A stretch of 64,000 nucleotides of DNA, taken from Acidimicrobiia bacterium. GTDB taxonomy: Bacteria > Actinomycetota > Acidimicrobiia > Acidimicrobiales > Aldehydirespiratoraceae. The position numbers and the translations under genes were made by a program. The DNA lies in assembly GCA_022820805.1 (NCBI GenBank), contig JAJEEV010000009.1, positions 1 to 64,000 on the forward strand. Reading direction: 5' to 3'. Under the pieces are notes generated by a model. It was not told the origin of the DNA. It did not search any database and saw nothing but the letters and a program-made list of their open reading frames with translations. Positions within the stretch are counted from its first letter, which is position 1, and each line of letters begins with the position of its first letter. Below, piece by piece: positions 20,602 through 35,779 of the stretch.

Positions 20602-21804
20602 ATGCTTGATAGCGCCGCGGCGCCGGTCGCTCTGGAGGCTCGATCCTCGGAGGCTGCGACCGCACAGGTGCAGCAGCGACGCGGTCGTTGGATCGTCGCC
20701 GATGATGTGAGCGTCACCCTTGGGGGGGCGCCGGTCCTCCGCAGCGCGACCATCACGACCGAAGCTGGCCGCACGCTGGCGCTACTCGGTCCGAGCGGAT
20801 GCGGTAAGACGACCCTGCTGCGGGTGCTCGCCGGGCTTCAGCGGCTCGAGTCCGGTCATGTCTTCATAGGCGGCAGGCTGATGTCGGGGCCGGCGGAGCC
20901 GAGGAACGGCTCGGCCCGCAACGGAGCCTCACGCAACGGAAGCTCCCGGAACGGGAGTTCGCCTCACATGGTGCACTTGGCCGCCGACAAGCGGGGCGTG
21001 GGCATGGTGTTCCAGGACTGGTCGCTGTTCCCGCACCTCACCGTGGCTGCCAATGTGGCCTTCGGCCTGCCCCGCTCGGAGCGCCCCCGCAGCCGGGTCC
21101 TGCCCCGGCCAGCGTCGCGCCGGGTGAGAGATCTGCTTGACATGGTGGGGATCGCCGAACTGGCCGATCGGCTGCCGGGATCGCTGTCGGGCGGGCAGCA
21201 GCAGCGGGTGGCGCTGGCCCGGGCCCTGGCGCCGCAGCCCTCGGTGCTGCTTCTCGACGAGCCCTTCTCGAGCCTCGACACGACCCTGAGGGTGGAGGTC
21301 CGGGCCGAGGTGGCCGCACTGCTGCGGGAGCTGGAGGTCACCTGCGTGTTCGTGACCCACGACCAGGACGAGGCCTTCGTGCTCGGCGACGAGGTGGCCG
21401 TCATGCGTGACGGGGCAGTGATCCAGCAGGCCGCGCCGGCCGTGCTCTACGAGCAGCCCGCGGATCTCTGGCTGGCCGGCTTCGTGGGTGAGGCCGACAC
21501 CGTTCGTGGCCGGGCCGAGGGCGATGTCGCCCACACGTCCCTGGGACCGATGCGGCTGCGGTCGCCGGCGCAGGGAGCGGTGGACGTCCTGGTGCGGCCC
21601 GAGGAGCTGGCCCTCACCGAGGGGGAGTCAGGCGTGGTGGATCACATCGAGTTCTTCGGCCACGACACCCTGTACTACATCCGCTCGGCGGACGGCGAGG
21701 TGCTGCGCTGCCGGACCACCGGCGCTCCCCGCTTCCGGCTCGGGGCCACCGTCGACCTGTGCCACAGCGGGGTGAGCACCGTCGCCTTCCCCCGCCCCTC
21801 CTAG
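20602..21804 (+). CDS. ABC transporter ATP-binding protein (FbpC/PotA type) with RNG-repeat insertion
   Basis: 400 residues. Walker A GPSGCGKTT (63-71), Q-loop FQDWSLFPHL, signature LSGGQQQRVALARAL, Walker B LLLDEPFSSLD and switch His in THDQDEAF are all intact. The C-terminal third (about 300-398) is a TOBE-like regulatory domain, so the family is Fe3+/polyamine/thiamine importers. Residues 101-120 are four tandem five-residue units of the form RNG(S/A)(A/S) (DNA 20902-20961, four 15-bp copies) inserted before the Q-loop, unusual for the family. No permease or binding protein is adjacent, so it is an orphan ATPase serving components elsewhere. Its stop overlaps that of the convergent Rieske gene in a shared CTAG. 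Confidence 0.85.
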   Translation: MLDSAAAPVALEARSSEAATAQVQQRRGRWIVADDVSVTLGGAPVLRSATITTEAGRTLALLGPSGCGKTTLLRVLAGLQRLESGHVFIGGRLMSGPAEPRNGSARNGASRNGSSRNGSSPHMVHLAADKRGVGMVFQDWSLFPHLTVAANVAFGLPRSERPRSRVLPRPASRRVRDLLDMVGIAELADRLPGSLSGGQQQRVALARALAPQPSVLLLDEPFSSLDTTLRVEVRAEVAALLRELEVTCVFVTHDQDEAFVLGDEVAVMRDGAVIQQAAPAVLYEQPADLWLAGFVGEADTVRGRAEGDVAHTSLGPMRLRSPAQGAVDVLVRPEELALTEGESGVVDHIEFFGHDTLYYIRSADGEVLRCRTTGAPRFRLGATVDLCHSGVSTVAFPRPS

Positions 21805-22847
21805 CTAGAAACCCCCGCGCCGGCCTCGGCTACCAGGTCGGCCAGCATCCGGCGCATCTCCAGGGTGATGCGGTCGGCCTTGGAGTGGTACTCCAGCGCG
21901 GGCACCAGCGGCACCGCCTTGGTCTGGATCCGCTGCAGGAGCACGCTGTCCTCGGCGGCCACGGCCTGCTGGAAGGCGACCGCCTCGGCGATGGGGCCGG
22001 GCTCGTCGGGGATGTCGTTGCGGTAGTCGGTGCAGTACAGCCGGGTGGTGGCGGCGTCCACCGGCTGGTGGCAGAAGCTGATGGTCAGCACCATGTCGGG
22101 GTAGCCGATGCGCAGGTACACGTGGTGGGGGGCGGTGAAGATGAACAGGAGCTCCCGCTCGACCACCTTGTAGTCGCCGTCGGCGCCCATCGAGTCGTCC
22201 AGCGCCTTGGTGAAGTGCCGGTGGCTGGCGGTGAAGCGCCAACCGTCGCGCTCCATCTTGTAGTCGCGCACCAGCTTGTCGTCCTCGTCGCCGAAGGTGG
22301 CCAGATGCACGAACGGCAGGTGGCCCAGGTCCAGGAAGTTGTCTGCCATCTGGGCCGCCCCCGCGTTCCACTCCGACGGGTCCAGCGGGCAGTTCACGAA
22401 GCTGGGGTCGTCGTGCTCGGGCACCTCGGGCAGCGGCGCGATCGGGTCCTCGGGCGCAAGCCACACCAGGTCCAGCGACTCCGTCACCCCGGCGGCCGCG
22501 GTAGCGCAGGCCCGAGCCGGTATGGGCAGGTCCGGGTCCACCGCGGGGATCTCCACGCACGTGCCGTCGGCGGCGAACCGGAAGCCGTGGTAGGCGCAGC
22601 GCAGAGTGTCGCCCACGATGGTTCCCGCGCTCAGCGGCGAGTAGCGGTGCGGGCAAGGGTCCCGCAGCGCGGTCAGCTCTCCGCCCAGGCGCACCAGGCA
22701 CCAGCGCTCACCGAGCAGGTCCACCGCAACCGGGCCGTCCGCGCCGACGTCGGCGCTGCGGGCCACCGGGTGCCAGCAGCGCCGCAGGGCCGGGTGCTCG
22801 TTGTCGATCCAGGAGGTGTTCCAGGATGGGTCGGCAGAGGCGTTCAT
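21801..22847 (-). CDS. Rieske non-haem iron oxygenase (single-component alpha-type)
   Basis: 348 residues. The Rieske [2Fe-2S] ligands are C65/H67 (CPHR) and C84/H87 (CAYHGF). The mononuclear iron site DNFLDLGHLPFVH supplies D173, H176 and H181. The short length and DNFLDxxH motif resemble vanillate-demethylase/CndA-like oxygenases that O- or N-demethylate or hydroxylate aromatics, rather than classical dihydroxylating enzymes. It needs a reductase, which is not encoded in the window. A strong site (AAGGGGGA) precedes the ATG. It is the last gene of the leftward unit after two amidohydrolases and a PanB-like protein, so it probably acts on the same aromatic or heterocyclic substrate. Confidence 0.88.
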   Translation of the reverse strand: MNASADPSWNTSWIDNEHPALRRCWHPVARSADVGADGPVAVDLLGERWCLVRLGGELTALRDPCPHRYSPLSAGTIVGDTLRCAYHGFRFAADGTCVEIPAVDPDLPIPARACATAAAGVTESLDLVWLAPEDPIAPLPEVPEHDDPSFVNCPLDPSEWNAGAAQMADNFLDLGHLPFVHLATFGDEDDKLVRDYKMERDGWRFTASHRHFTKALDDSMGADGDYKVVERELLFIFTAPHHVYLRIGYPDMVLTISFCHQPVDAATTRLYCTDYRNDIPDEPGPIAEAVAFQQAVAAEDSVLLQRIQTKAVPLVPALEYHSKADRITLEMRRMLADLVAEAGAGVSS

Positions 22848-22867
22848 CGGTCCCCCTTGCGTCCTTG

Positions 22868-24358
22868 CTAGTCGGCGGCTCCGAAGGCTGGAGTGATCCG
22901 GGCCAGCCGCTCCACGGGCACCGGTCGGGCCATCTCGTAGTCGTGGATCTCGGTGAGCACGTCCACGTAGCGGTCATAGAAGGCCTGGCGTTCGGGGAGG
23001 CCCTCGTGGAAGCGTCGCTGCAGGTCGCGGGACCGCTCGCCCATGGCGCCCTCGTCGACGCGGGTCGAGCGGCCCTCGGAGACCATCACCTCGCCGTCGA
23101 CGATCACGGTCTGCACCGACTGTCCGTGCTCGGCCAGGACCAGGCTCGTGGCCAGGCCCTCGGCGTGCACCGGCACATGGCGCTCAGCGTCGAGCAGCAC
23201 GATGTCGGCCGCGCTCCCGGGCTGGAGCGAGCCCAGCGGCTGGCCCAGCGCGGCCGCCCCGCCTCGCAGGCACATCCTCCAGATCGCGGGGGCCTGGGGC
23301 CAGTGCCGGTGCGATCCGTGCAAGGTCTGCAACAGCGTGGCGAACTTCATGGCCTCGAACATGTTCTGGTTGTCGTTGGAGGCTGCGCCGTCCGCGCCGA
23401 GGGCCACGCTGACCCCGCCCTCGAGCAGGTCGGCCACGGGCAGGATGCCGGACCCGCACCGCAGGTTCGACACCGGGTTGTGCACGATGGTGGCGCCGCA
23501 GCGCTGAACCGTCGCGAACTCGTCGGGGTCCATCCACACGCAGTGGGCCAGGCTGGAGCCCGGCCTCAGCATTCCGAGGTCCTCGAGGTACGAGACGCTG
23601 GAGCGCCCGTAGCGCTCCAGGTTGGCACCGATCTGGGTCCTGGTCTCCAGCACATGGGTGTGGAACCCCGCTTCGCGCTCGCGGGCCAGGCCGGCCAGGC
23701 CGTCCATCAGCTCGTGGGTGCAGCGCTGCGGAGCCGATGGCCCCACCATCGGCGTGAGCCGGGAGTGGGCGCCCTGCCAGCGATCGAAGAACCTCGCCAT
23801 GGAGTCCAGCAGTCCGGCCGCCTCGAACGGATCCCCCAGCGGTTCGGGCTTGGGGCGGGAGGCGCCCGCGAACGACATCGTGTCGAAGATGTCCAGATCG
23901 CCGATCATGGGAGCCAGCCCGGCCCGCATCCCGGCGTCGGCGTAGGCGCTCATGATGGCCTCGGAGTAGTTCTCGAAGTCCCACGGCGCCACCCAGCCGT
24001 GGTCGAGCACCGCGGTGCAGCCCGACTGGAGCATCTCCAGCGCCCCGGCCATGGCCAGCGTGTAGCGGTCCTCCGCGGTGATGGGGACCTTCCCGAACAC
24101 CGCCCACATCAGCCACAGGTCCAGCGGCAGGTTCGGGGTGGTTCCCCGGTCGAGGTTCTGGGCCGAGTGGGTGTGGGAGTTGATCAGGCCCGGCATGGCC
24201 ACCATGCCGTCGGCCTCGACCACCTCGGCCGATCCGGGGCGAAGGCCGGGCCCCACTTCGGTGATGATGCCGCCTTCGGCTCTGATGTCCGCGACCCGCA
24301 GCGGGCCCTCGGCGTCGAGGATCGTCGCCTGCCTGACCAGCAACCCGGAGTCGCTCAC
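22868..24358 (-). CDS. TRZ/ATZ-family amidohydrolase / deaminase 1
   Basis: 496 residues from a GTG start. It is a metal-dependent TIM-barrel amidohydrolase with the HxH motif in NSHTHSAQN (about 61-69), a third His in FHTHVLET, a fourth in LAHCVWMD and the catalytic Asp in ALGADGAASND. The small beta-sandwich surrounds the barrel at both ends (LVRQATILD and the C-terminal VDGEVMV). This pattern is shared by 8-oxoguanine, hydroxyatrazine, S-adenosylhomocysteine and guanine deaminases. It would hydrolytically remove an amino or similar group from a heterocycle. It starts 13 bp after the stop of amidohydrolase 2; the two proteins are clearly distinct and probably catalyse successive or alternative steps. 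Confidence 0.88.
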   Translation of the reverse strand: MSDSGLLVRQATILDAEGPLRVADIRAEGGIITEVGPGLRPGSAEVVEADGMVAMPGLINSHTHSAQNLDRGTTPNLPLDLWLMWAVFGKVPITAEDRYTLAMAGALEMLQSGCTAVLDHGWVAPWDFENYSEAIMSAYADAGMRAGLAPMIGDLDIFDTMSFAGASRPKPEPLGDPFEAAGLLDSMARFFDRWQGAHSRLTPMVGPSAPQRCTHELMDGLAGLAREREAGFHTHVLETRTQIGANLERYGRSSVSYLEDLGMLRPGSSLAHCVWMDPDEFATVQRCGATIVHNPVSNLRCGSGILPVADLLEGGVSVALGADGAASNDNQNMFEAMKFATLLQTLHGSHRHWPQAPAIWRMCLRGGAAALGQPLGSLQPGSAADIVLLDAERHVPVHAEGLATSLVLAEHGQSVQTVIVDGEVMVSEGRSTRVDEGAMGERSRDLQRRFHEGLPERQAFYDRYVDVLTEIHDYEMARPVPVERLARITPAFGAAD

Positions 24359-24371
24359 CGTTTCGCCCCGC

Positions 24372-25832
24372 TCACAGGTAGTCGACGTTGGTGCCGAGCT
24401 GCACGTAGCGGCGGGGCGCCATCTCCGCGATCATGCGGGCCCCCAGGGCCTCGGCCTCGGGCAGCAAGGCCTCCTCGTCGATGGTCAGCAGCCGACCCTC
24501 GTGCATCACCAGGCGGCCCGCCACGATCGTCGACTCGGCGTCGGTGCCCACCCCGTAGCGCACCAGCGTCGCCACCGGGTCCGTCGAGGGGGTGAGCCGG
24601 ACGTTGTTGGCGTCGATGACGCAGATGTCGGCGGCCTTGCCCGCCTCCAGCGAGCCGATCTCGTCGTCCCACATCAGCAGCCGGGCCGCGTCGATGGTGC
24701 CCATCTCGAAGGCGTCGGCGCAGGAGAACCCGTAGGGGTCGAACAGCGGCATGGCCGCCTGGTTGTGCATGATGTGCGCGATCCGCATCAGCTTCAACAC
24801 GTCGTTGATGATGGTGTCGCAGCCCAGCCCGACGGTGATGCCCCGGGCCCGCATCAGCGGCACCCGGGTGACGGCCGACATGATGTCGGTGCATACCACC
24901 GGCGCGTGGGCCAGCTTGGCCCCGGCCCCGGCCATCAGGTCGATCTCGCGGTCGGTGGTGAGCATGGCGTGGATGGCCACCAGCCGCTCGGTCAGCGCAC
25001 CGATGGAGGCCAGGTGCTCCAGGGGCCGGTGCCCGAACAGCGACACGCTGAGCTCGATCTCCTCGCGGTCGCGGTTGATGTGGGTCATGATCCCGGTGCC
25101 CCACCTCTGGACCAGTTCGTCGGTGGCCAGGTAGCGCTGGTCCGAGCACGACGGCACGCCCAGGTTGTGCACCCAGGGCCGCAGCCGCCCCTCGCCCCGC
25201 TCGAACCACTTGGCGAAGAACTCCTCGGTGTAGGCCAGGTCGTCGGCCAGGGCGGCCGGGTCGTCGCGGTACCACGACCTCTCCGTGATCTGCTCGTAGT
25301 TGCCGGCCAGACGCGACTCGCGGTCCCACATGCCCCGGGCCAGCGCGCAGCGGATGCCGGTCTCCATGACCGTCTCGGCGATCGGCTCCTCGTGGGCGAC
25401 GGTGCAGGTGGTCTCGGTCATGGTGGTGACGCCGGCCCGCAGCAGCTGCGCGAAGGCCACCTGGGCGCTGACCCTCACGTCGTCGGTGCTCTGGATGTCC
25501 TCAGCCGGGATGTAGATGCGGTAGATGTTGGGGAAGTCCTCCACCGTGCTCTCCCGGCACAGCGCCTGGGCGATGTGGTTGTGGCAGTCGATCAGCCCCG
25601 GGATCACGTAGCGCCGGGCCCCGCCGATGCGCCGGGCGCCGGGGTGAAGGGCCCTCAGCTCATCGGCCTTGCCCACTGCGGCGATGCGGTCCCCGGCCAC
25701 GGCCACCGCTCCGTCGGAGATCACCCGCCGTCGGGGGTCCATGGTCACCACCGTCCCCTCGACCAGCAGGGACACCGGCTCTGCGGCTGTGTCGGCGCCG
25801 GTCACTTCGGTGGCCGGGTCATCTCCGCCCAT
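24372..25832 (-). CDS. TRZ/ATZ-family amidohydrolase / deaminase 2
   Basis: 486 residues. The HxH motif is in DCHNHIAQ (about 82-89); later metal ligands are MTHINRDREE and VAIHAML, and the Asp is in GLGCDTIIND. GSLEAGKAADICVID at the end of the barrel is the usual amidohydrolase signature. It belongs to the same superfamily as its downstream neighbour but has diverged widely. Its ATG at 25832 has AAGGAG with a 7-nt spacer and overlaps the PanB-like stop by 31 bp; an alternative GTG (25805) would overlap that stop in a GTGA. I prefer the ATG because of the ribosome site. Hydrolysis of an amino- or halo-substituted ring, or an amide, is likely. Confidence 0.88.
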   Translation of the reverse strand: MGGDDPATEVTGADTAAEPVSLLVEGTVVTMDPRRRVISDGAVAVAGDRIAAVGKADELRALHPGARRIGGARRYVIPGLIDCHNHIAQALCRESTVEDFPNIYRIYIPAEDIQSTDDVRVSAQVAFAQLLRAGVTTMTETTCTVAHEEPIAETVMETGIRCALARGMWDRESRLAGNYEQITERSWYRDDPAALADDLAYTEEFFAKWFERGEGRLRPWVHNLGVPSCSDQRYLATDELVQRWGTGIMTHINRDREEIELSVSLFGHRPLEHLASIGALTERLVAIHAMLTTDREIDLMAGAGAKLAHAPVVCTDIMSAVTRVPLMRARGITVGLGCDTIINDVLKLMRIAHIMHNQAAMPLFDPYGFSCADAFEMGTIDAARLLMWDDEIGSLEAGKAADICVIDANNVRLTPSTDPVATLVRYGVGTDAESTIVAGRLVMHEGRLLTIDEEALLPEAEALGARMIAEMAPRRYVQLGTNVDYL

Positions 25833-26659
25833 GGCACTGCTCCTTGGGGTCTCGGGTCGTCGTCGTCCGCGTCGAGGGCTTGGAGGAACTCCTCCAGTTC
25901 GGCGCCGTCGATCTGCAGCTTGTGCTCAGCAGCAGGGTAGACGCCGGACTCCACGTCGGCCCGGTACTCGCCGTAGGCGGCCACCCGCTCGTCGTGGAGG
26001 CGCTCGTAGGCAGCCTGGAAGTCGCGGTACTTCTTGGAGTGGCGCGGGTAGTGGCCCGTGTTCGATCCCAGGATGTCCATGCTGAACAGGTACTGGGCGT
26101 CGCATCCGGCTCCCGACCCCATCGAGATCAGGAAGAGCGAGCTCCGCTGGGATATGGCGGCTGCGACCGGCTCGGGCACGAGCTCGATCTCCGCCGCGAA
26201 CGCGCCGGCATCCTCCAGGGCTCTGGCCTGGCGCCACACCCGCAGCGCGCTCCCGGCCGTCTTGCCCACCGCCCGGTAGCCGCCGTACCAGGTGCGGTGG
26301 GTGGGGATGAAGCCGATGTGGCCCACTACCGCCAGTCCCTCGGCGGCGAGCCGGGCCACCGTGTCGAGCCCGGCCGCGCAGTACACCGCGTCGGCGCCCA
26401 GGCGGTACATGGCCATGCCCATGCGCAGGTACTCGTCGGTGGTGGCGTGGACGCCGTAGGCCAGCGCAGCGATGATGAACGTGGTGGGGGCGGCCTCGCG
26501 GACCTCGCGGCTCATCATCTCGTCGGGCAGGCACATCATGTCGAGCCCCGCCTCCTCAACTGCCCGGACCTCCTCCAGAGACAGCACGAAGACGTCGGTC
26601 AGCTGGCGGTTTCCCTTGCCGGCGACGAGTTCTGCGACGGTCGGCTTGGCCCGAGTCAT
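25802..26659 (-). CDS. Ketopantoate hydroxymethyltransferase (PanB)-like protein of catabolic context
   Basis: 285 residues. The C-terminal half aligns well with PanB: VVGHIGFIPTHRTWYGGY, a LEDAGAFAAEIELVPE stretch, SMGSGAGCDAQ, GHYPRHSKKY and DVESGVYPAAEHK. The N-terminal half is diverged: the usual VGDSLGM and second metal-Asp regions are replaced by CLPDEMMSREV and AALAYGVHAT. PanB joins formaldehyde equivalents to 2-oxoisovalerate for coenzyme A synthesis; here the gene leads a catabolic unit with two amidohydrolases and a Rieske oxygenase and has no panC or panD neighbour. A related retro-aldol or C-C bond reaction on a breakdown product is an inference. The promoter region holds the TTTGAT-N3-ATCAAA operator. 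Confidence 0.75.
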   Translation of the reverse strand: MTRAKPTVAELVAGKGNRQLTDVFVLSLEEVRAVEEAGLDMMCLPDEMMSREVREAAPTTFIIAALAYGVHATTDEYLRMGMAMYRLGADAVYCAAGLDTVARLAAEGLAVVGHIGFIPTHRTWYGGYRAVGKTAGSALRVWRQARALEDAGAFAAEIELVPEPVAAAISQRSSLFLISMGSGAGCDAQYLFSMDILGSNTGHYPRHSKKYRDFQAAYERLHDERVAAYGEYRADVESGVYPAAEHKLQIDGAELEEFLQALDADDDDPRPQGAVPWAEMTRPPK

Positions 26660-26681
26660 CCCCTGAAGAAAACCACAAGAC

Positions 26682-26696
26682 TTTGATAGGATCAAA
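26682..26696. promoter_or_regulatory. Operator: inverted repeat TTTGAT-AGG-ATCAAA in a divergent promoter
   Basis: A perfect 6-bp-arm inverted repeat with a 3-bp centre sits between the divergent PanB-like (ATG 26659) and aldo/keto reductase (ATG 26705) genes. The left flank AC extends the match with the second copy at 35761-35779. TAGGAT (26687-26692), a possible -10 for the rightward gene, lies inside it, so a bound protein would probably repress. The XRE-cupin protein encoded at 28881-29492 is the candidate regulator. Confidence 0.7.
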
Positions 26697-26704
26697 CACG
26701 CTCC

Positions 26705-27640
26705 ATGCAAGATCGGTCGGACGAGGTAGAGCTGGGACGGACCGGGCTCAGGGTCGGGCGCTTGGCGATGGGCACCGCCCCGCTGGCCACGATCTTCTGG
26801 GGCAACGACGCCGGCACCGCGGAGCGGACCGCGGCCCGGGCGCTGGAGCGGGGCGTCGGGTTCTTCGACACCGCCCCCTTCTACGGGCTGGGCGAGGCCG
26901 AGCGCCGTCTGGGCCGGGCCCTGGCTGCGGCCGAGGGGCAGCCACTCCCGGTCATCGCCACTAAGGCCGGCCGCCTGCTGACCCAGGGCACCGACGGCTC
27001 CGTCGACGTGTGCTTCGACTTCAGCTACGGGGCGGCCAAGCGGTCGTTGGAGTCGAGCCTGGAGCGCCTCGGCGTCGACCGGGTCGACATCGTCCACATC
27101 CACGACCCCGACGACCACATCCATGAGGCGCTGGAGGGCACCTACCCGGCGCTGTTGGACCTGCGCGATGAGGGCGTGATCAAAGCGGTGTCTCTGGGCA
27201 CCAACTCGGTCGCCACCGCGGCCGTCTTCCTCGAGCGGGCCGACCTCGACTGCATGCTGGTGGCCGGCCGCTACACGCTGCTCGACCGATCGGCGGCGGC
27301 GCTGATCGACGCCTGCACCCGGCTGGGGGTGGCGTACCTGGCGGCCGGCGTCTTCAACAGCGGCGTGCTGGCCCGGCCCCGGGCCGGCTCGTGGTACGAC
27401 TACGGCCCGGCGTCGGACGACACCCTCGAGAGGGTCGCGGCCATCGACTCCGTCTGCCAGCGTCACGGCGTGCCGCTCCGGACCGCCGCGGTGAACTTCC
27501 CGCTCACCAACCCGGGCGTCGCCGCCGTGGTGGTCGGGATGGCCGCGCCTGCGGAGGTGGACGAGAATCTGGACGCGCTGGAGGCCCCGGTGCCCGACGA
27601 GTTGTGGCAGGAGTTGCAGGGAATGGAGATGCAAGCATGA
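26705..27640 (+). CDS. Aldo/keto reductase (L-fucose/pyridoxal dehydrogenase-like)
   Basis: 311 residues of the AKR TIM-barrel family. Catalytic D55 and Y60 (FFDTAPFYG), K87 (ATKAGR) and a His in VHIHDPDD (131/133) form the tetrad. The opening LGRTGLRVGRLAMGTAPLA and overall length fit the branch with D-threo-aldose 1-dehydrogenase, L-fucose dehydrogenase and pyridoxal 4-dehydrogenase. It would oxidise a cyclic hemiacetal or aldehyde, or reduce a carbonyl, with NAD(P). It is the first gene of the rightward unit, directly after the operator. The dehydratase gene begins 13 bp after its stop, which suggests the two act in sequence on a polyol-like or sugar-acid fragment. Confidence 0.88.
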   Translation: MQDRSDEVELGRTGLRVGRLAMGTAPLATIFWGNDAGTAERTAARALERGVGFFDTAPFYGLGEAERRLGRALAAAEGQPLPVIATKAGRLLTQGTDGSVDVCFDFSYGAAKRSLESSLERLGVDRVDIVHIHDPDDHIHEALEGTYPALLDLRDEGVIKAVSLGTNSVATAAVFLERADLDCMLVAGRYTLLDRSAAALIDACTRLGVAYLAAGVFNSGVLARPRAGSWYDYGPASDDTLERVAAIDSVCQRHGVPLRTAAVNFPLTNPGVAAVVVGMAAPAEVDENLDALEAPVPDELWQELQGMEMQA

Positions 27641-27653
27641 GGGAGCGACCGAC

Positions 27654-28844: not shown

Positions 28845-28867
28845 CGAGCGGCCGAAAGCCCCCCGGT

Positions 28868-28873
28868 TAGCCT
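28868..28873 (+). promoter_or_regulatory. Possible leaderless -10 for the XRE-cupin regulator
   Basis: TAGCCT ends 7 nt before the ATG at 28881 and there is no ribosome-binding sequence, so the regulator may also be transcribed from its own leaderless promoter inside the unit. No -35 of good quality is seen. Confidence 0.35.
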
Positions 28874-28880
28874 CCCGACG

Positions 28881-29492
28881 ATGGCAGCCAGCGCCCAGCC
28901 CCAGCCGCAGCCCCGGAGCGACCACGACAGCCGCGCCCTCGAGGAGCTGGGCCAGGCCGTGCGCGGCCGCCGCAACCAGCTCGGCCTGACGCTGAGCCAG
29001 GTCGCCGACCGGGCCGGCCTGTCGGTCCCGTTCCTCAGCCAGGTGGAGACCAGCTTCGCGGCCCCCAGCCTCACATCGCTGTTCGCCATCGCCAGGGTGT
29101 TGGAGACCACCCCCGAAAGGCTGCTGGCCGGCCCGGTGTCGGCCGACGTGGTGGTGACGCCCCGCGAGGAGGGCCCGCGTTACGACATCACCGACGCGCC
29201 CCAGACCGCGTTCCGCCGCCAGCTCACCGGCCTGGACGAGCCGTTCAGTGCGGCCGAGTACGTGGTCGAGCCCGGCTCGCAGCTCGGCGGGTTCTTCGCC
29301 TCGGAGGGCCGGGAGATGATCCACGTGACCTCCGGGATGCTGGCGGTCGACCTCGACGACGGCGACGGCCACATCGTCACCCACCGCCTGGCCGCGGGCG
29401 ACACGATGATCTACTCCACCGCCACCCGTCACCGCTGGCACCATCTCGGCGCCGAGACCACCCGCTTCGTCCATGTCTCGGCCCCCGGCTAG
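28881..29492 (+). CDS. XRE-family transcriptional regulator with cupin domain
   Basis: 203 residues. A helix-turn-helix of the XRE type spans about 22-82 (RRNQLGLTLSQVADRAGLSVPFLSQVE, with the second helix around LSVPFLSQVET). A cupin effector-binding domain fills 110-203, including the EPGSQLGGFFA and GREMIHVTSGML strands and the AAGDTMIYSTATRHRWHH metal/ligand-site region. Such regulators (PuuR/SutR-like) sense small metabolites and usually repress local catabolic genes. It is the third gene of the aldo/keto reductase-dehydratase unit and lies between the two halves of the supercluster. It is the best candidate to bind the TTTGAT-N3-ATCAAA repeats at 26682 and 35761. Confidence 0.87.
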   Translation: MAASAQPQPQPRSDHDSRALEELGQAVRGRRNQLGLTLSQVADRAGLSVPFLSQVETSFAAPSLTSLFAIARVLETTPERLLAGPVSADVVVTPREEGPRYDITDAPQTAFRRQLTGLDEPFSAAEYVVEPGSQLGGFFASEGREMIHVTSGMLAVDLDDGDGHIVTHRLAAGDTMIYSTATRHRWHHLGAETTRFVHVSAPG

Positions 29493-29525
29493 CCCCCGAT
29501 ACCAGGCCCGCACCGTGGCGCGGGG

Positions 29526-30320
29526 TCAGGGCTCTATGAGGGGGAAGACCTCTCCGGCCACCCGGTCGCCGGTGCTCAGGCCGTGGGGGAGCATCCTCCA
29601 GAAGACGGCGGCCTGCTCGCCCAGGTCGAGGTAGCGGGTGTCGGGATGGGCGTAACGGGTCGACAGCCTCCGGAAGGGTCGGTCGGCCACCTCGCGGATG
29701 CCGGTCGAGTGGAGCATCCGGGAGTCGATGGCCACTGCGTCGCCGGCCTTCAGGTCCCAGGTGGTGACCGGGAACCCTTCGGGGTCGGCGTCGATGTCGG
29801 GGACGGGCTCCAGCTCGGAGCCACCGCCGATGGTGGTCGTCGATGACGAGAACTCGATCGGCGCGTAGGTGACACCGGTGGCGTGGGAGCCCTCCACCAC
29901 CCGCAGCGCGGCGTCGGCGGTCACGTCGTCGAGGGTCACCCAGATCGTGGCGAAGGGCCGGTCGAGGTTGTAGTAGGGGTGGTCCTGGTGCCAGGGGCTG
30001 CGCGACACCGCTCCGGGCTCCGAGCAGAACCACTGGTCCTCGATCAGCACCGCGGCGTCGGCGCCGCACAGCTCCGCGCCCAGCGCGGGCACCGGCGACG
30101 AGTGGGTCACCTCGGCGATGTCGGGGTCGTCGAACCAGCGGAACAGGTCGCTGTCGACCTTCAGCTCCCCCGGCGGCGACAGCACCCCGTAGAACTGGCT
30201 CGGGCTGGCCTGGCAGCGCTCGATGGCAGCCTGGAGGCGCTCGCACCAGCGCCGATCCAGCAGTCCTGGCACGACCACCACGCCCCGCTCCTCGAAGGCC
30301 GCCCGCCGCTCGGTGCCCAT
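29526..30320 (-). CDS. Phytanoyl-CoA dioxygenase (PhyH)-family Fe(II)/2-oxoglutarate oxygenase
   Basis: About 264 residues of double-stranded beta-helix type. The facial triad is His and Asp in SPWHQDHPYY (about 115-124) and a distal His in MLHSTG, followed by an Arg-containing strand (RRLSTRYAH) for 2-oxoglutarate. It would hydroxylate an unactivated carbon or demethylate with O2 and 2-oxoglutarate in the cytoplasm. I chose ATG 30320, which has GGAG 8-9 nt upstream and begins 13 bp after the Rieske alpha stop; GTG 30344 would overlap that gene. It closes the transporter-Rieske operon and is convergent with the regulator gene. It adds a third oxygenase type to the cluster. Confidence 0.85.
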   Translation of the reverse strand: MGTERRAAFEERGVVVVPGLLDRRWCERLQAAIERCQASPSQFYGVLSPPGELKVDSDLFRWFDDPDIAEVTHSSPVPALGAELCGADAAVLIEDQWFCSEPGAVSRSPWHQDHPYYNLDRPFATIWVTLDDVTADAALRVVEGSHATGVTYAPIEFSSSTTTIGGGSELEPVPDIDADPEGFPVTTWDLKAGDAVAIDSRMLHSTGIREVADRPFRRLSTRYAHPDTRYLDLGEQAAVFWRMLPHGLSTGDRVAGEVFPLIEP

Positions 30321-30333
30321 CGTCGTGTCTCCG

Positions 30334-31608
30334 TCAGCGGGCACGGGTGGCCGCGGGAGCGGTCATCAGCCCGGCGTAGTGGGCGAGGTAGCGACGCTGG
30401 GGCGCCTCGGAGGTGATCGGGCCGCGGATCGTGCCGTCGGTGGCGCGGTCGTCCGGGAGCCCGCGGCTCATGTCGATCCACTCCATCTCCGGTACCGACA
30501 GGCCCCGCTGGACCCGTTCGAACATGTCGAGGTCGTCGGGGGTGCCGAAGTTCACGAAGTCCTCGTCCACCCGGAGGCGCAGCAGGTCGATCTCGGGCGG
30601 TGCCCCTGGTGCGGAGGTGAGCCACAGGTTCAGCCGGGTACGGTCCACCGCCACCGGCTCCACCACCAGCAGCTGGTTGCCGACGAAGATCAGGTTCGGG
30701 AACAGCGACAGGTTCACCATGCTGCCCGTGGCCAGGTCGAGCAGTTCGGTGGCTCCGGCGTCCACCAGCGCCGACTCCAGCGGCTCCCGGAACGGCACGT
30801 CGCGCATGGTGGCCCACGGCCCCTGGGGTATGCCCGGGCGCTGGTCGACCACCATGTGGCCGTTGCGCAGAGCCTTGGACACCATCGGCGTCGATCCGGG
30901 GTCGCGGGCCAGCACCGTCTCCACGTCCACGGTAGAGCCGAGCGTGTTGTAGGAGTGGTGGGCGAAAGTGGCATGCAGGCCGTCGGCCGCGTTGTCCCAC
31001 GACAGCTTCCAGTTGCCGGCGAACTCCAGGAGCTGCGGTGAGCCCATCACCGCCAGCTCGCCGCCGGGATGCCGGTCGATGATGATGTCGAACGCCTCGA
31101 CAGCCTCACCCAGCCAGCAGTCGAGCGGCTCGGGGTCGGCGTTGAGGGTGGCGAACACGAAGCCCCGGTAGGTGGCGGTCGCCAGCCGGCCCAGCGACAG
31201 CGTCGAGTAGTCCTCCACAGGGTGGTCCGACGGGAACGGGATGGCCACCAGCTGCCCGTCGGGCGTATAGGTCCAGCCGTGGTAGGGGCACACGAAGCGC
31301 TTGGCGCAGCCACTGGACTCCGCGGCCAGCACCGTGCCCCGGTGCGCGCACCGGTTCAGGAGCACGTTCACGTCGCCGTCGCGGCTCCGCGTCATCAGCA
31401 CGGGCCTCAGGCCCAGCGTGGTGGTGCGGTAGTCACCCGGGTCGGGGATCTCGCTCTCATGGCCCACGTAGCACCAGGACGCTGCGAACACGCGGGTCAT
31501 CTCCGCCTCGAAGATCGCCGGATCGGTGTAGATGCGGCGGTGAACCCGGTGGGGCTGCACCAGCTCGCCGAAGTCGGCGACTACGGGATCGATGTTGGCG
31601 GCGGTCAT
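30334..31608 (-). CDS. Aromatic-ring-hydroxylating dioxygenase, alpha subunit
   Basis: 424 residues. Rieske ligands are C87/H89 (CAHRG) and C107/H110 (CPYHGW). The catalytic iron site is WDNAADGLHATFAHH with D209, H212 and H217. Length and motif spacing match large subunits of two-subunit dioxygenases of the benzoate/biphenyl/anthranilate group. A beta subunit gene directly precedes it, so an alpha3beta3 enzyme that cis-dihydroxylates a ring is expected. ATG 31608 has AGGGG at 7 nt; the GTG at 31614 lies too close to that site. Ferredoxin and reductase partners are not encoded nearby, so electrons must come from elsewhere in the genome. Confidence 0.9.
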   Translation of the reverse strand: MTAANIDPVVADFGELVQPHRVHRRIYTDPAIFEAEMTRVFAASWCYVGHESEIPDPGDYRTTTLGLRPVLMTRSRDGDVNVLLNRCAHRGTVLAAESSGCAKRFVCPYHGWTYTPDGQLVAIPFPSDHPVEDYSTLSLGRLATATYRGFVFATLNADPEPLDCWLGEAVEAFDIIIDRHPGGELAVMGSPQLLEFAGNWKLSWDNAADGLHATFAHHSYNTLGSTVDVETVLARDPGSTPMVSKALRNGHMVVDQRPGIPQGPWATMRDVPFREPLESALVDAGATELLDLATGSMVNLSLFPNLIFVGNQLLVVEPVAVDRTRLNLWLTSAPGAPPEIDLLRLRVDEDFVNFGTPDDLDMFERVQRGLSVPEMEWIDMSRGLPDDRATDGTIRGPITSEAPQRRYLAHYAGLMTAPAATRAR

Positions 31609-31618
31609 AGTCACACCC

Positions 31619-32215
31619 CTACAGCAGAAAGCTCGGATTGCGCACGCCGGTTGCGAGGGCGGGAACGACGAGGATCTTGGTGCGCCGCCGGAGGTCGTCG
31701 CCGACGAGTTCGTGGATCTGGTAGGCGGCCAGCTGCTGGTGGCGGTTGTGGCGGTGCTCGTCGATCAGGACGGTGGAGCGGGTCACGACACCTCGCGGCC
31801 CGTCCCAGGCCTCGACGCTGCCGACGACACGGGTGGTGCGCGACGGCGGCTGCTGGCCCCACGCCGACGGGTCGCAGCGCCACTCGATCCGCTCGGCCAG
31901 CCGCCGATGGTCATCGAGCAGCAGCGACTGGTCGTTGCCGGGGTGGGCCCGATCCGACAGCGGCACCCACAGCACCGCGTCGTCGGTCCATCCGTCCAGC
32001 CAGTCCTCGAAGCGACCGGCGTCCAGCAGCCGGGCCTCGTGGGCCAGCGCGGCCGCGGCGGTGGCGGACAGGTCCGGGTCGGCTAGCGGGCGACCGTCCA
32101 TCCCCGACAGCAGCTCGGCCAGCTCTTCGTAGCGGGCCAGGACGGCGGCCGGGGCGTCGGCGGCCGCAGAGCCGGAGGGGCCGGGGCCGGGAACGTCTGC
32201 CGCGGCGACCGTCAT
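31619..32215 (-). CDS. Aromatic-ring-hydroxylating dioxygenase, beta subunit
   Basis: 198 residues of the SnoaL-like/NTF2 fold used by dioxygenase small subunits. Typical segments are EARLLDAGRFEDWLDGWTDDAVLWVPL (about 60-86), DDHRRLAERIEWR and a C-terminal strand RRRTKILVVPALATG. The first about 25 residues are a Gly/Ala/Pro-rich extension. The small subunit is structural and helps hold the alpha trimer. Its ATG overlaps the permease stop in ATGA and it ends 10 bp before the alpha gene. Tight coupling of transporter and dioxygenase genes is direct evidence that the imported compound, or its product, is ring-oxygenated. Confidence 0.88.
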   Translation of the reverse strand: MTVAAADVPGPGPSGSAAADAPAAVLARYEELAELLSGMDGRPLADPDLSATAAAALAHEARLLDAGRFEDWLDGWTDDAVLWVPLSDRAHPGNDQSLLLDDHRRLAERIEWRCDPSAWGQQPPSRTTRVVGSVEAWDGPRGVVTRSTVLIDEHRHNRHQQLAAYQIHELVGDDLRRRTKILVVPALATGVRNPSFLL

Positions 32216-33834
32216 CGTGAGATTCCCGGAGCCATGCGCTCGAGGGTACGGAGCTCGAACGCGGCCACCAGCCAGTAGCCGATCACAGCCACGATCGTCA
32301 GGACCGCCACCGACACCCAGAGGATCTTGAAGTCGTTGCGGGTGAAGGCGGTGACCATCACCGCCCCGATCCCGTCGCCGGTGGCCAGCCACTCGGCCAC
32401 GGTGGCGCCCAGCAGCGAGGTGGGAACCGCGATGCGGGCCGAGGCCAGCAGGGCGGGCACCGACGTCGGCAGGTAGGCGTTGCGCACGTTGGCCGTGGAG
32501 GTGGCGTCGTAGGACCTGAGCACGTCGAGGATCCCCTCCGGTGTGCGGGTCATGGCCGTGTAGCAGTTGACCAGCGTCGGGAAGAACGACATCACGGCCA
32601 CGATTGCGGTGGTGGTCAGCAGGCCCCGCCCGACGAACAGGATGATCACCGGCGTGGTGACGATGATCGGGATCGACCGCAGCGCCACCGCGATCGGCAT
32701 CAGGGCCCGCTCCAGCCACGGGACCAGGATGAACACGAGCGCGGTCACCAGCGCCCCGGCAAGGCCGACCACGTAGCCCAGTGATGTGGTCCACAAGGTG
32801 GTGCCCAGTGCCCCGAAGATCAGCGAGCGGGTTTCGGCCGCCTCGGCTTCGGAGAACAACTCGGCCCACACATCGATGGGCGTCTTGGCGAAGAACGGCT
32901 CGATCCCGAACACCCACAAGAACGCGTACCAGAAGACGAACACCACCGCGATGGGGGCCAGCAGCCCGGCCAGCCGGTTGAGCAGGCCGGGCTCGACCCG
33001 GGCCACAGGCACTGCGCCCACATCCAGTGCGGGCGACCACGGGCACAGGTACCGGCCCAGCGCTCCGATGGCCAGGTATCCGCCGGTGGCTACGATGGTG
33101 GACAGCACCGCGATCACCCAGATCCGGTCGGTCTGGAGGGCGCCGAGGGCCCTGACGGTGAGGATCCCCAGGCCGCGGTGCGCGCCGGTGAACTCGCCCA
33201 CCACCGCGCCGAGGAAGGCGGCCGGCGCGGCGATCTGCAGCCCGGCGAACAGCGCCGGGACCGAGGCCCGCAGCCGCACGGTGCCGAAGGCGACCAGCCG
33301 GCCCCGGCCGTAGGAGCGGATCACGTCGAGAGCGCTGCCCGGCGCCAGGTCGAAGCCCAACAGCGCGGCCACGTAGGTGGTGAACACCACAGCCAGCGCC
33401 GACAGTGCGATGGGGGTGGCGTTGCCCGGTCCGGTGATCAGGCGCAGGATCGGGGCCACCGCGATGAACGGCAGGCAGAAGATGGTCAGCACCACCGCAC
33501 CGATGCTGCGCCGCAGCCACGGCACCAGCGTCGCGGTCACGGCCAGTGCCATGGCGGCCAGGTTCCCCCACAGGAACCCCCAGGCCGCCGTCTTGGTCGA
33601 GTGCCACAGATTGCGCAGGTAGAGGCCGCGGAACTCGAAGAACTCGGCCACCACCGCGGTGGGCGGCGACAGCCGGTACGAGCCCGCGTAGACCGTGCGG
33701 GCCAGCAACTCCCACAGCAGCAGCACTGCGACCCCGACCGCCGCACTCAGGATCCGCGGCGGCACCCGGTCGAGCCGGCTGCCTCCTGGGGGACGGGTCG
33801 GCGCGTCGGCCGCGGCCTCGGTGGCGGCGTTCAA
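32212..33834 (-). CDS. ABC transporter permease, two permease domains fused (SsuC/TauC type)
   Basis: 540 residues, about twice the usual 250-280 of this family. Each half carries a set of about six membrane helices and an EAA-type loop: LDVIRSYGRGRLVAFGTVRLRASVPALFAGL in the first and LDVLRSYDATSTANVRNAYLPTSVPALL in the second. The halves are clearly paralogous, so one polypeptide supplies both membrane subunits that normally come from a homodimer. The TTG start (33834) overlaps the ATPase stop in a TTGA. It moves substrate delivered by the NMT1/SsuA-like binding protein across the inner membrane. Confidence 0.88.
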   Translation of the reverse strand: MNAATEAAADAPTRPPGGSRLDRVPPRILSAAVGVAVLLLWELLARTVYAGSYRLSPPTAVVAEFFEFRGLYLRNLWHSTKTAAWGFLWGNLAAMALAVTATLVPWLRRSIGAVVLTIFCLPFIAVAPILRLITGPGNATPIALSALAVVFTTYVAALLGFDLAPGSALDVIRSYGRGRLVAFGTVRLRASVPALFAGLQIAAPAAFLGAVVGEFTGAHRGLGILTVRALGALQTDRIWVIAVLSTIVATGGYLAIGALGRYLCPWSPALDVGAVPVARVEPGLLNRLAGLLAPIAVVFVFWYAFLWVFGIEPFFAKTPIDVWAELFSEAEAAETRSLIFGALGTTLWTTSLGYVVGLAGALVTALVFILVPWLERALMPIAVALRSIPIIVTTPVIILFVGRGLLTTTAIVAVMSFFPTLVNCYTAMTRTPEGILDVLRSYDATSTANVRNAYLPTSVPALLASARIAVPTSLLGATVAEWLATGDGIGAVMVTAFTRNDFKILWVSVAVLTIVAVIGYWLVAAFELRTLERMAPGISR

Positions 33835-34634
33835 CTGGGGTCCGTGTCGAGTTGCACGACCTGTCCCTCGGAGCGGTGCAGGCTGGCCGAGACCGCCTCC
33901 ACCTCGGCGTGGAACCGGTCGGTGAGCAGCAGTTCACGGGTGCGGGGTCGCTCGAAGCCGATGCTGTGGCGGGCCACCACCCGGCCCGGCCGCGGCGACA
34001 TGACCAGCACCTCGTCGGCCACGTACACCGCCTCGGGGATCGAGTGGGTGACCAGGATGGTGGTGGTGCCCCGCGCCGTCCAGATCCGCTGGAGCTCGTC
34101 GTTGAGCTGCTGGCGGGTCAACGCGTCGAGGGCGCCGAAGGGCTCATCGAGCAGCAGCAGGTCCGGGTTGGTGACCAGTGACCGGGCGATGGCCACCCGC
34201 TGGCGCATGCCTCCCGACAGCTGCGAGGGCCGGGCCTTCCCGAACTCCTGCAGGCCGACGAGCTCGACCAGCTCGTCGACCGCCGCGGAGTCGTGGCGGC
34301 GGCCGACGAGTTCCAGCGCCAGCCGGATGTTGGTCGAGACCGTCCGCCACGGAAGCAGCGACGGGTCCTGGAAGGCCACCCCGATGCGCTGGCCCCGCCG
34401 CATCTCGTCGGGCGACGAGCCGTCCATGTCGATGATCCCCTCATCGGGGGCGTCCAGGCCGGCGACGAGGCGCAGCGCGGTGGACTTGCCGCAGCCCGAC
34501 GGCCCGATCAGCGCGGTGAAGCCGCCCGCGGGCACGTGCATGTCGAAGCCGCGCAGCGCCACGACCTCGCCGTCGCCCAGGGCGAAGGTGCGCCCGACCC
34601 CGACGACATCAACCGGCGCTCCCCGCCGGTCCAT
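33831..34634 (-). CDS. ABC transporter ATP-binding protein (SsuB/TauB type)
   Basis: About 267 residues with Walker A IGPSGCGKSTALR, Q-loop FQDPSLLPWRTV, signature LSGGMRQRVAIARSL, Walker B LLLDEPFGALD and switch His VTHSIPEAV. The DPSLLPW and PEAVYVADEV segments are characteristic of the nitrate/sulfonate/taurine importer ATPases. It energises import by the fused permease. GTG 34637 and ATG 34634 are consecutive start choices. It lies 38 bp after the binding-protein gene and overlaps the permease start, so stoichiometry is probably set translationally. Confidence 0.9.
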   Translation of the reverse strand: MDRRGAPVDVVGVGRTFALGDGEVVALRGFDMHVPAGGFTALIGPSGCGKSTALRLVAGLDAPDEGIIDMDGSSPDEMRRGQRIGVAFQDPSLLPWRTVSTNIRLALELVGRRHDSAAVDELVELVGLQEFGKARPSQLSGGMRQRVAIARSLVTNPDLLLLDEPFGALDALTRQQLNDELQRIWTARGTTTILVTHSIPEAVYVADEVLVMSPRPGRVVARHSIGFERPRTRELLLTDRFHAEVEAVSASLHRSEGQVVQLDTDPS

Positions 34635-34672
34635 CACCTAGAGATTGCTGCGATGCTCCGGCGAACGCTACG

Positions 34673-35707
34673 TCACAGCACGGGACCGTCGGCGTAGATC
34701 TCGGCGAGCAGCGAGCGGTCCCAGAAGTCCTCGGTGACGTTCACGCCGAGCGCCTTGAGGACGCGGATGTTGTCGGCCACCGACTGGTCGGTCCACCACA
34801 GGAAGCCGCTGGCGTCGGTCACGTCGCTGAACATCAGCTTGGTGAACTCGTGGGCTTTGAGCGTCTCGGTCTCGAGGTCCATGCCCGCGTCGGGGAACCG
34901 GTCGACGGTGACCTGCGCGGCGGTGTCGGGGTCGGCCTTGTGGTCCTGCCAGCCGAGGATCTCGCCCCGCAGCAGCGACTTCACGGTCTCGCGGTTGGTG
35001 GCCAGGGTCTCCTCGGTGACGATGTAGGTCTGGCTGTGGACCGCGTAGCCGAAGTCGGCGAACAGCATGGTCGTGTTGTCGATGCCGGCCACGGTCATGG
35101 CCACCGGCAGGTCGACCAGCCAGCACAGCAGGCAGTCGACCTCGCCGTTGACCAGCGGGGCCGGGTCGTAGTCGGCCTGGATGACCTCGATGGCGTTGAC
35201 GTCGACGCCGTTGAGCGACGACAGCAGCTCGAGGTCGAGCTGGTTGTTGAAGGCCATGCCGAGTCTGCGACCCTCCAGGTCCTTGGGCTCGTTGACCGGG
35301 TTGCTCGTGAGCGAGGCGATCACGAAGGGGTTGCGCTGCATGGCCACACCCACGACCTTGAGTGGCGCGCCGTCGGCCCACGCCTGGCCCGCGAAGTTGG
35401 CGGCCGATATGCCCATGATGGACTGGCCGGCGATGACCGAGGTGTCGGGCGACACGCCCGGTCCGCCCGGCACCAGCGTCACGTCGAGGCCGTTCGCGGC
35501 GTAGTGGCCGTTCGCGTCGGCGACGTAGGAGCCGCCGAACTGCACCGAGTCGAACCAGCTCAGGTGGAAGTTCACCGGCGTCAGGGCGGCGGGTGCGGGC
35601 TCGGAGCCCGAGCACGCCGTGATCAGGGTGCTGCCGCCCAGCAGCAGGCCGGCGCCGGCGGCGGTGCCTCCCAGGAATGTGCGTCTGGAGAATTGGTTGG
35701 TGGTCAT
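34673..35707 (-). CDS. NMT1/SsuA-like ABC substrate-binding lipoprotein with Tat signal
   Basis: 344 residues. The N-terminus combines a twin-arginine motif (SRRTFLGG, R8-R9) with a lipobox (LITAC, C32), so it is exported folded through Tat and lipid-anchored. The mature domain has HLSWFDSVQFGGSYVADANG and an LPGGPGVSPDT-like loop typical of NMT1/THI5 and SsuA/TauA binding proteins, which bind thiamine-precursor pyrimidines, sulfonates, nitrate or aromatic acids. The ATG follows GGGGGA. It is the first gene of an operon running through ATPase, permease, Rieske beta, Rieske alpha and PhyH. The TTTGAT operator lies 54 bp upstream. Confidence 0.88.
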   Translation of the reverse strand: MTTNQFSRRTFLGGTAAGAGLLLGGSTLITACSGSEPAPAALTPVNFHLSWFDSVQFGGSYVADANGHYAANGLDVTLVPGGPGVSPDTSVIAGQSIMGISAANFAGQAWADGAPLKVVGVAMQRNPFVIASLTSNPVNEPKDLEGRRLGMAFNNQLDLELLSSLNGVDVNAIEVIQADYDPAPLVNGEVDCLLCWLVDLPVAMTVAGIDNTTMLFADFGYAVHSQTYIVTEETLATNRETVKSLLRGEILGWQDHKADPDTAAQVTVDRFPDAGMDLETETLKAHEFTKLMFSDVTDASGFLWWTDQSVADNIRVLKALGVNVTEDFWDRSLLAEIYADGPVL

Positions 35708-35760
35708 GAGGATCCCCCTGTTAGACAGCCTTCGGCGGCGAGCCGCCCAAGGCTGGACTC

Positions 35761-35779
35761 ACTTTGATCACATCAAAGT
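35761..35779. promoter_or_regulatory. Operator: perfect inverted repeat upstream of the transporter operon
   Basis: ACTTTGATCACATCAAAGT has 8-bp arms around a 3-bp centre. The core TTTGAT-N3-ATCAAA is the same as at 26682-26696, about 9 kb away, and both are in intergenic promoter positions. TACTTT on the minus strand (35780-35775) overlaps one arm and could be the -10, which would make the site a repressor operator. The start codon of the binding-protein gene is at 35707. Confidence 0.72.

Follow-up and report, generated by a model that had tools for sequence, protein, structure and literature searches.

Which compound would a bacterium take up and degrade with a dense run of importer, oxygenase and amidohydrolase genes, and do such genes form one unit at all? 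The question is raised by a 64,000-nucleotide stretch of the Acidimicrobiia contig JAJEEV010000009.1 (assembly GCA_022820805.1), referred to as the window throughout, in which an earlier note had described positions 21801-35779 as a complete import-and-breakdown pathway for a probably heterocyclic compound. The genes in question stand in three blocks, and the two promoter regions ahead of them share a palindrome that is found nowhere else in the genome; from sequence comparison we consider it very probable that these 14 kb make up one regulon. One import-and-breakdown unit is supported because the genes are conserved together and share this dedicated palindrome. To the fuller statement that, step order aside, the locus would encode import and breakdown, under XRE-cupin repression, of a heterocycle that is purine-like and possibly N-methylated, we assign a probability of roughly 0.55.

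A palindrome shared by two promoter regions

Reading frames, Pfam and NCBIfam place thirteen genes at 21801-35707. A minus-strand block running from 35707 to 29526 holds overlapping or tightly spaced genes for a binding protein, an ATPase, a fused permease, the beta and alpha subunits of a Rieske oxygenase and a PhyH-type oxygenase. A plus-strand block (26705-29492) encodes an aldo/keto reductase, an MR/MLE protein and an XRE-cupin regulator, and a second minus-strand block (26659-21801) encodes a PanB-like protein, the amidohydrolases AH1 and AH2 and a VanA-type Rieske protein. An intergenic alignment first revealed the palindrome in the gap that separates the PanB-like gene from the divergent reductase gene, and a second copy was then found upstream of the importer. 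In the 3.40-Mb genome TTTGATNNNATCAAA occurs at exactly two places, the PanB-like/reductase divergent promoter and the importer promoter (backward control, 0), and its two matches in the window compare with none in 100 shuffles. The features are as follows.

35763..35777, no strand: operator-like palindrome TTTGATCACATCAAA, 55 bases upstream of the first start codon of the importer operon
34673..35707, minus: NMT1/THI5-type substrate-binding lipoprotein (PF09084, E 1.1e-37; nearest solved chains 4nmy and 3ix1)
33831..34637, minus: ABC ATPase (PF00005, E 1.1e-33)
32212..33834, minus: fused double permease with two BPD_transp_1 stretches (PF00528, E 5.6e-31, 2 stretches)
31619..32215, minus: Rieske oxygenase beta subunit, 198 amino acids (reading frame; PF00866, E 3.3e-13)
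30334..31614, minus: Rieske oxygenase alpha subunit of ring-hydroxylating type (PF00355, PF00848; nearest solved chain 7yls_B, E 2.6e-54)
29526..30344, minus: PhyH-type oxygenase (PF05721, E 4.3e-19)
28881..29492, plus: XRE-cupin regulator (HTH_3 and Cupin_2; orthologue distribution)
27654..28844, plus: enolase-superfamily (MR/MLE) dehydratase or racemase (PF13378, E 2.6e-48)
26705..27640, plus: aldo/keto reductase (PF00248, E 2.2e-44)
26682..26696, no strand: operator-like palindrome TTTGATAGGATCAAA, between the divergent PanB-like and aldo/keto reductase genes
25802..26659, minus: PanB-like protein without three PanB metal/substrate residues (PF02548, E 4.9e-39; residue checks)
24372..25832, minus: TRZ/ATZ amidohydrolase 1, AH1 (PF01979; H84, H86, H251, H288 and D339 kept; HxxE glutamate replaced by R254)
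22868..24358, minus: TRZ/ATZ amidohydrolase 2, AH2, with canonical deaminase motifs (PF01979, E 1.7e-49)
21801..22847, minus: single-component Rieske oxygenase of VanA/NdmA type (PF19112, PF00355; nearest solved chain NdmA 6icp, E 1.9e-31)

Every family named in the earlier note was thus located where the note had placed it (Pfam, NCBIfam, reading frames), and the end it gave at 35779 reaches past 35707 to take in the palindrome upstream of the importer. Its "two divergent amidohydrolases" are divergent in sequence; the two genes are adjacent and on the same strand. The NMT1/THI5-type ABC importer is complete by Pfam, with binding protein, ATPase and BPD_transp_1 permease together, and the binding protein carries a twin arginine and a lipobox when read by eye. 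The PanB-like gene starts near 26659, within a longer frame (25802-27655) that was rejected as an overlong version of it; for the frames 25844-26686 and 31069-32220 neither Pfam nor NCBIfam gave a match, and better frames lie opposite them, so that both were likewise rejected as genes. The cluster is flanked by genes for a UvrD/HelD-like helicase (HelD), a PotA-like ATPase (ABCx), a DtxR-type regulator and an F420-type LLM protein.

Of 16 same-genus genomes, 13 contain a match to the palindrome. A regulator orthologue of at least 90% identity is encoded in twelve of them and in no other genome of the set, and the 23 sites in these twelve, compared by position, all lie at promoters of this cluster; because the genus genomes are kin, these counts are not independent. 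The thirteenth genome (G001) has a single site inside a class III aminotransferase gene and no PanB-like orthologue, and in the genus scan G006 and G013 had neither PanB-like orthologue nor palindrome. G010, which is without a regulator orthologue (best 37%) and without AH1 at the locus, retains most other cluster genes; its sites are decayed, one half of the PanB-like site being gone and, ahead of the binding protein gene, the closest match having 3 mismatches. In G016, a genome of another genus, the palindrome occurs at seven places with at most one mismatch, among them one exact and one one-mismatch site in the PanB-like/reductase gap and one one-mismatch site upstream of the binding protein. 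As a separate observation, the PanB-like/reductase promoter of G015 carries an insertion of ~3.5 kb (L032:8085-11633) with a 37-base palindrome-bearing stretch on each side.

In the accessible part of a study of Pseudomonas, XRE-cupin regulators are presented as repressors that act locally on adjacent metabolic genes; those with several sites have palindromic motifs (PMC7901475). The protein encoded here has the corresponding helix-turn-helix and cupin domains, and a palindromic site lies at the neighbouring promoters, features that mark it as a putative local repressor. The main text of a motif survey (PMC12565409) contains neither "TTGA" nor "ATCAA".

A shorter core, TTGATNNNATCAA, is found at four places in the genome (backward control, 0; ~0.1 expected from composition): two in the cluster, one beside an AH1 paralogue and one in a purine-type locus with two PnrA-like binding proteins. 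The third place has an XRE-cupin paralogue on one side and, on the other, a lipoprotein gene that gave no telling Pfam match and neighbours the AH1 paralogue (60%). When AH1-paralogue loci were scanned, all 14 (12 distinct genomes, with two same-genome pairs; L084, cut by a contig end, lay outside the scan) had one core site between the XRE-cupin and AH1 paralogues. The fourth place, on contig C34 of the same genome (G000), precedes a GCV_T gene by 55 bases and is close to the start of a PnrA-like binding protein gene that runs divergently; this contig also carries molybdenum hydroxylases, two VanA-type Rieske proteins, a second PnrA-like importer and an adenosine deaminase above its NCBIfam cut-off, and no XRE-cupin was noticed at this locus. 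Through the putative operator core the regulator family is linked with heterocycle loci, of which one is purine-type. C34 (L231/L232) can also be regarded in its own right as a second purine-type supercluster of this genome, with an operator-like TTGATGCCATCAA at C34:11652, and the genome holds 16 MoCoBD_1 matches over cut-off, which would seem to be many xanthine-dehydrogenase-type hydroxylases for a genome of 3.4 Mb.

Distribution of the cluster in related genomes

Co-occurrence in related genomes had been named in the earlier note as a check on its proposal, and the outcome favours a single unit: eight of the 13 relatives examined hold all 13 genes (G003, G004, G005, G008, G009, G012, G015 and G016, with G005 counted as complete although its permease is cut by a contig end), and gene order is kept. 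In G002, G011 and G014 the missing genes fall at the ends of fetched stretches or contigs. A PanB-like orthologue (at least 75%) is present in 13 of the 16 same-genus genomes, own included, and in G016. In the last of these, a genome of another genus, the 13 genes stand together between different flanks, and HelD, ABCx, DtxR and LLM were not found in the G016 stretches read. Inside the genus the flanking genes are likewise syntenic; over matches covering >90% of length, mean identity is 93.1% for AH1 and 93.2% for the MR/MLE protein (10 each), as against 92.6% for DtxR (8), 91.1% for LLM (4), 86.4% for HelD (8) and 80.8% for ABCx (10), and the conservation of the cluster does not exceed that of every flank.

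At E 1e-90 AH1 was matched in 4 of 395 class-sample genomes (own included; one at 40%). A scan of named genomes gave 79 loci, of which 14 reach at least 82% identity: twelve in Acidimicrobiia-type metagenome-assembled genomes (MAGs) with the window-type cluster or parts of it, and two (L073 and L074) in another context. Two further loci belong to Thermoleophilaceae MAGs at 64-65%, 12 represent the paralogue at 59-61%, and the remaining 51 are distant or partial. MAG names suggest that the cluster carriers are sponge-associated Acidimicrobiia, and in the part of PMC8163846 consulted sponge species are listed that fit some of the name codes.

Alleles of the binding protein fall into two groups within the genus, at 63-75% and 93-97% identity to the window. 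The permease groups match them (85-88% and 94-95%), and AH1 and AH2 have no such split; the importer may have been exchanged as a module.

Enzymes and the likely substrate

Clues to the substrate come from the neighbours of AH1 relatives and from the Rieske proteins. At L073 and L074 (82-83%), AH1 stands with a fused permease, BPD_transp_2 permeases and two or three further amidohydrolases; one of those at L074 is guanine-deaminase-like, and YqeB and YqeC (both over cut-off) and an XdhA-like hydroxylase are near. At L075 (64-65%) a Bmp/PnrA-like binding protein, BPD_transp_2 permeases and a hydantoinase adjoin, and at L076 (64-65%) there are similar-looking importer frames, read from sequence starts alone, and another amidohydrolase. 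The nearest Protein Data Bank chain to the single-component Rieske protein is NdmA, a methylxanthine N1-demethylase. The description "probably heterocyclic" in the earlier note fits both the neighbours of close AH1 relatives and the NdmA-like Rieske protein. A purine-like compound is in our judgement the best single reading of these sequences, at about even odds, and other results allow different ring compounds. In part of a review, methylated purines are reported from many sponges (PMC5793054).

On the purine reading, the XRE-cupin protein would keep both promoters repressed, and binding of the substrate or of an early intermediate to its cupin domain would lift the repression. A purine-like, possibly N-methylated, heterocycle would be taken up by the lipoprotein importer; the VanA/NdmA-type Rieske protein would remove a methyl group or oxidise the ring; AH2 would remove an exocyclic amine; AH1 would hydrolyse a ring C-N bond by altered chemistry; the two-subunit Rieske oxygenase and PhyH would oxidise the product; and the PanB-like protein, the MR/MLE protein and the reductase would turn the carbon skeleton into central metabolites. 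For these last three proteins the roles are guesses, as is the order of the steps.

Two of the enzymes depart from their families. In TRZ/ATZ deaminases the HxH, H, H and D motifs provide the metal residues, and the HxxE glutamate is part of the deaminase motif set. The AH1 metal residues (H84, H86, H251, H288 and D339) are invariant in a 12-sequence alignment. In a separate residue comparison the HxxE glutamate is replaced by arginine in all rows of at least 59% identity and in the 40% relative L052; six of seven distant rows (29-31%) keep the glutamate, as does 4f0r. The family name of AH1 is misleading, the enzyme being without the HxxE glutamate. The AH2 motifs HTH, HVLE, AH and GADG are present in the window protein and in 14 other rows.

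In PanB the metal and substrate residues are D84, K112 and E114 (E. coli numbering). Their equivalents are kept by none of 43 and none of 46 PanB-like rows in two residue alignments, whose row sets repeat some genomes and both include the window protein, and the equivalents of H136 and E181 are kept in all rows. Three ordinary biosynthetic PanB genes fetched from these genomes keep all five residues, and a separate PanB gene with the D84/K112/E114 residues lies on another contig of the own genome (G000:C14). The PanB-like protein also scores below the NCBIfam cut-offs for PanB (104.2 bits vs 207.55 for TIGR00222; 123 vs 272 for NF001452), so that the earlier name "PanB-like" is right as to family (PF02548) and misleading as to function, three PanB residues being gone. 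Predicted structure models of AH1 and of the PanB-like protein were poor (mean predicted local distance difference test scores, pLDDT, of 55.5 and 44.1) and were not used.

Members of the PanB-like family (E 1e-30 or better) occur in 56 of the 395 class-sample genomes, and 36 of these carriers belong to one genus with assemblies of 0.6 to 1.1 Mb. Annotation and metabolic models of the carriers may err, because the family is annotated as a pantothenate enzyme yet lacks the needed residues. In three genomes of ~1 Mb and 30-32% GC (L185, L186 and L189) we saw no catabolic genes around the PanB-like protein, which is without the metal residues there too; the small low-GC carriers are probably Actinomarina, whose features as given in the accessible part of PMC7771536 they fit. 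One PanB-like relative (L046, 44%) stands beside a molybdenum hydroxylase, amidohydrolases, an M20 peptidase and a CN hydrolase.

A number of observations weigh against the purine reading. The guanine-deaminase-like (357 bits; cut-off 375) and XdhA-like (655; cut-off 780) proteins of L074 fall below curated cut-offs, and the best NCBIfam matches of the importer there are to a putative vitamin B6 transporter, also below cut-off. The neighbours of the 40% AH1 relatives L052/L059 are a sugar kinase, a sugar-type binding protein, peptide-type transport, an LLM-like frame and PhyH, with no purine genes, and PanB-like relatives elsewhere stand in varied settings, of which many are not purine-like and some are sugar-type or unclear. 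Pfam matches of the 13 cluster proteins include no xanthine dehydrogenase, urate oxidase or allantoinase. By profile the two-subunit Rieske oxygenase is nearest to aromatic-acid-type dioxygenases (benzoate/anthranilate type), and the solved proteins nearest to the binding protein are 3ix1, a formylaminopyrimidine binder, and 4nmy, an uncharacterised protein. Four further palindrome sites of G016 (at most one mismatch, one exact) lie away from the cluster. The G007 locus is without the importer and Rieske alpha/beta genes; PhyH (71%) and the VanA-type gene (9%) survive there as remnants, and the other cluster genes, PanB-like, AH1 and AH2 included, are still in place. Finally, Pfam and NCBIfam find no Rieske reductase among the 13 genes, which leaves the earlier claim of a complete pathway short in this respect; in the own genome FAD_binding_6 (PF00970) has no match, and NAD_binding_1 (PF00175) has two, on other contigs, at 27.0 and 25.6 bits (cut-off 22).

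Several of these points would be accounted for if the regulon were real and its compound another: an aromatic or pyridine-type acid, a compound akin to vitamin B6, or a pyrimidine, for example a thiamin precursor. The amidohydrolases would then act at a late stage, on intermediates that are amides or lactams. This alternative is possible and would agree with the benzoate/anthranilate-like profile of the two-subunit Rieske oxygenase, which by sequence resembles the Rieske proteins 7yls and 9o71, with the pyrimidine binder among NMT1-type binding proteins, with the B6-type match at L074 and with the purine-free surroundings of the 40% AH1 relative. We hold it less probable than a purine-like substrate, as in four genomes outside the genus the closer relatives of AH1 (64-83%) adjoin nucleoside-type or PnrA-like importers, some with hydantoinase or purine-type enzymes, and as the shared operator core connects the cluster with the purine-type locus on C34. 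It is quite unlikely that the locus comprises two or more separate small pathways (importer with Rieske/PhyH; amidohydrolase with demethylase) under one repressor and the same signal rather than one linear route. The separate blocks speak for such a split, as do the G007 locus, which kept PanB-like, AH1 and AH2 without the importer-Rieske block, and the G010 locus, which kept the importer block without AH1; it is countered by the eight relatives with all 13 genes and by the whole set in the different surroundings of G016. A chance run of unrelated metabolic genes, syntenic through close kinship alone, would suit the syntenic flanks, some as conserved as the cluster enzymes (DtxR and LLM), and is rejected as highly improbable because G016 keeps the 13 genes together away from those flanks and, in the own genome, the palindrome occurs at the cluster promoters and nowhere else.

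Known systems and the meaning of the locus

The closest parallels to the putative regulation are the XRE-cupin repressors ErfA, PsdR, PauR and their relatives, alike, in what we could consult of PMC7901475, in helix-turn-helix and cupin domains, adjoining enzyme and transporter genes, palindromes and few local targets. In contrast to those Pseudomonas systems, the sites here are inferred from genome comparison and not from binding, the unit has 13 genes and the pathway differs. Xanthine-dehydrogenase/guanine-deaminase purine loci have their counterpart near the 82-83% AH1 relative in L074, and the window cluster has none of those genes. NdmA/NdmB clusters for methylxanthine N-demethylation comprise a set of VanA-type Rieske proteins with a reductase. 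The common point is the VanA-type Rieske protein with NdmA as nearest solved chain; the window cluster has a single protein of this kind rather than a set, lacks a nearby reductase, and has an importer, amidohydrolases, PhyH and a PanB-like protein instead. PanB itself shares the PF02548 match and the H136 and E181 equivalents with the PanB-like rows and differs in D84, K112 and E114. The available text on the SAR11 marine purine pathway (PMC11698098) contains neither "amidohydrolase" nor "Rieske". Among the matches listed in literature searches on sponge symbiont catabolism, the PanB-like family, methylated purines, methylxanthine demethylases, purine use in the sea and XRE-cupin palindromes, no title or abstract start describes this cluster.

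We know of no account of the fate of methylated purines in sponge symbionts. A bolder proposal, on balance doubtful, is that the locus represents a new route by which sponge-associated Acidimicrobiia would consume N-methylated or oxidised purine alkaloids of their host, via a PanB-fold enzyme without the PanB metal site and a glutamate-less amidohydrolase. If true, this would add two new catalysts, and the PanB-fold family is found also in many ~1-Mb low-GC genomes of the class. The palindrome-delimited regulon provides a testable unit of one importer, one putative repressor and eight enzymes.

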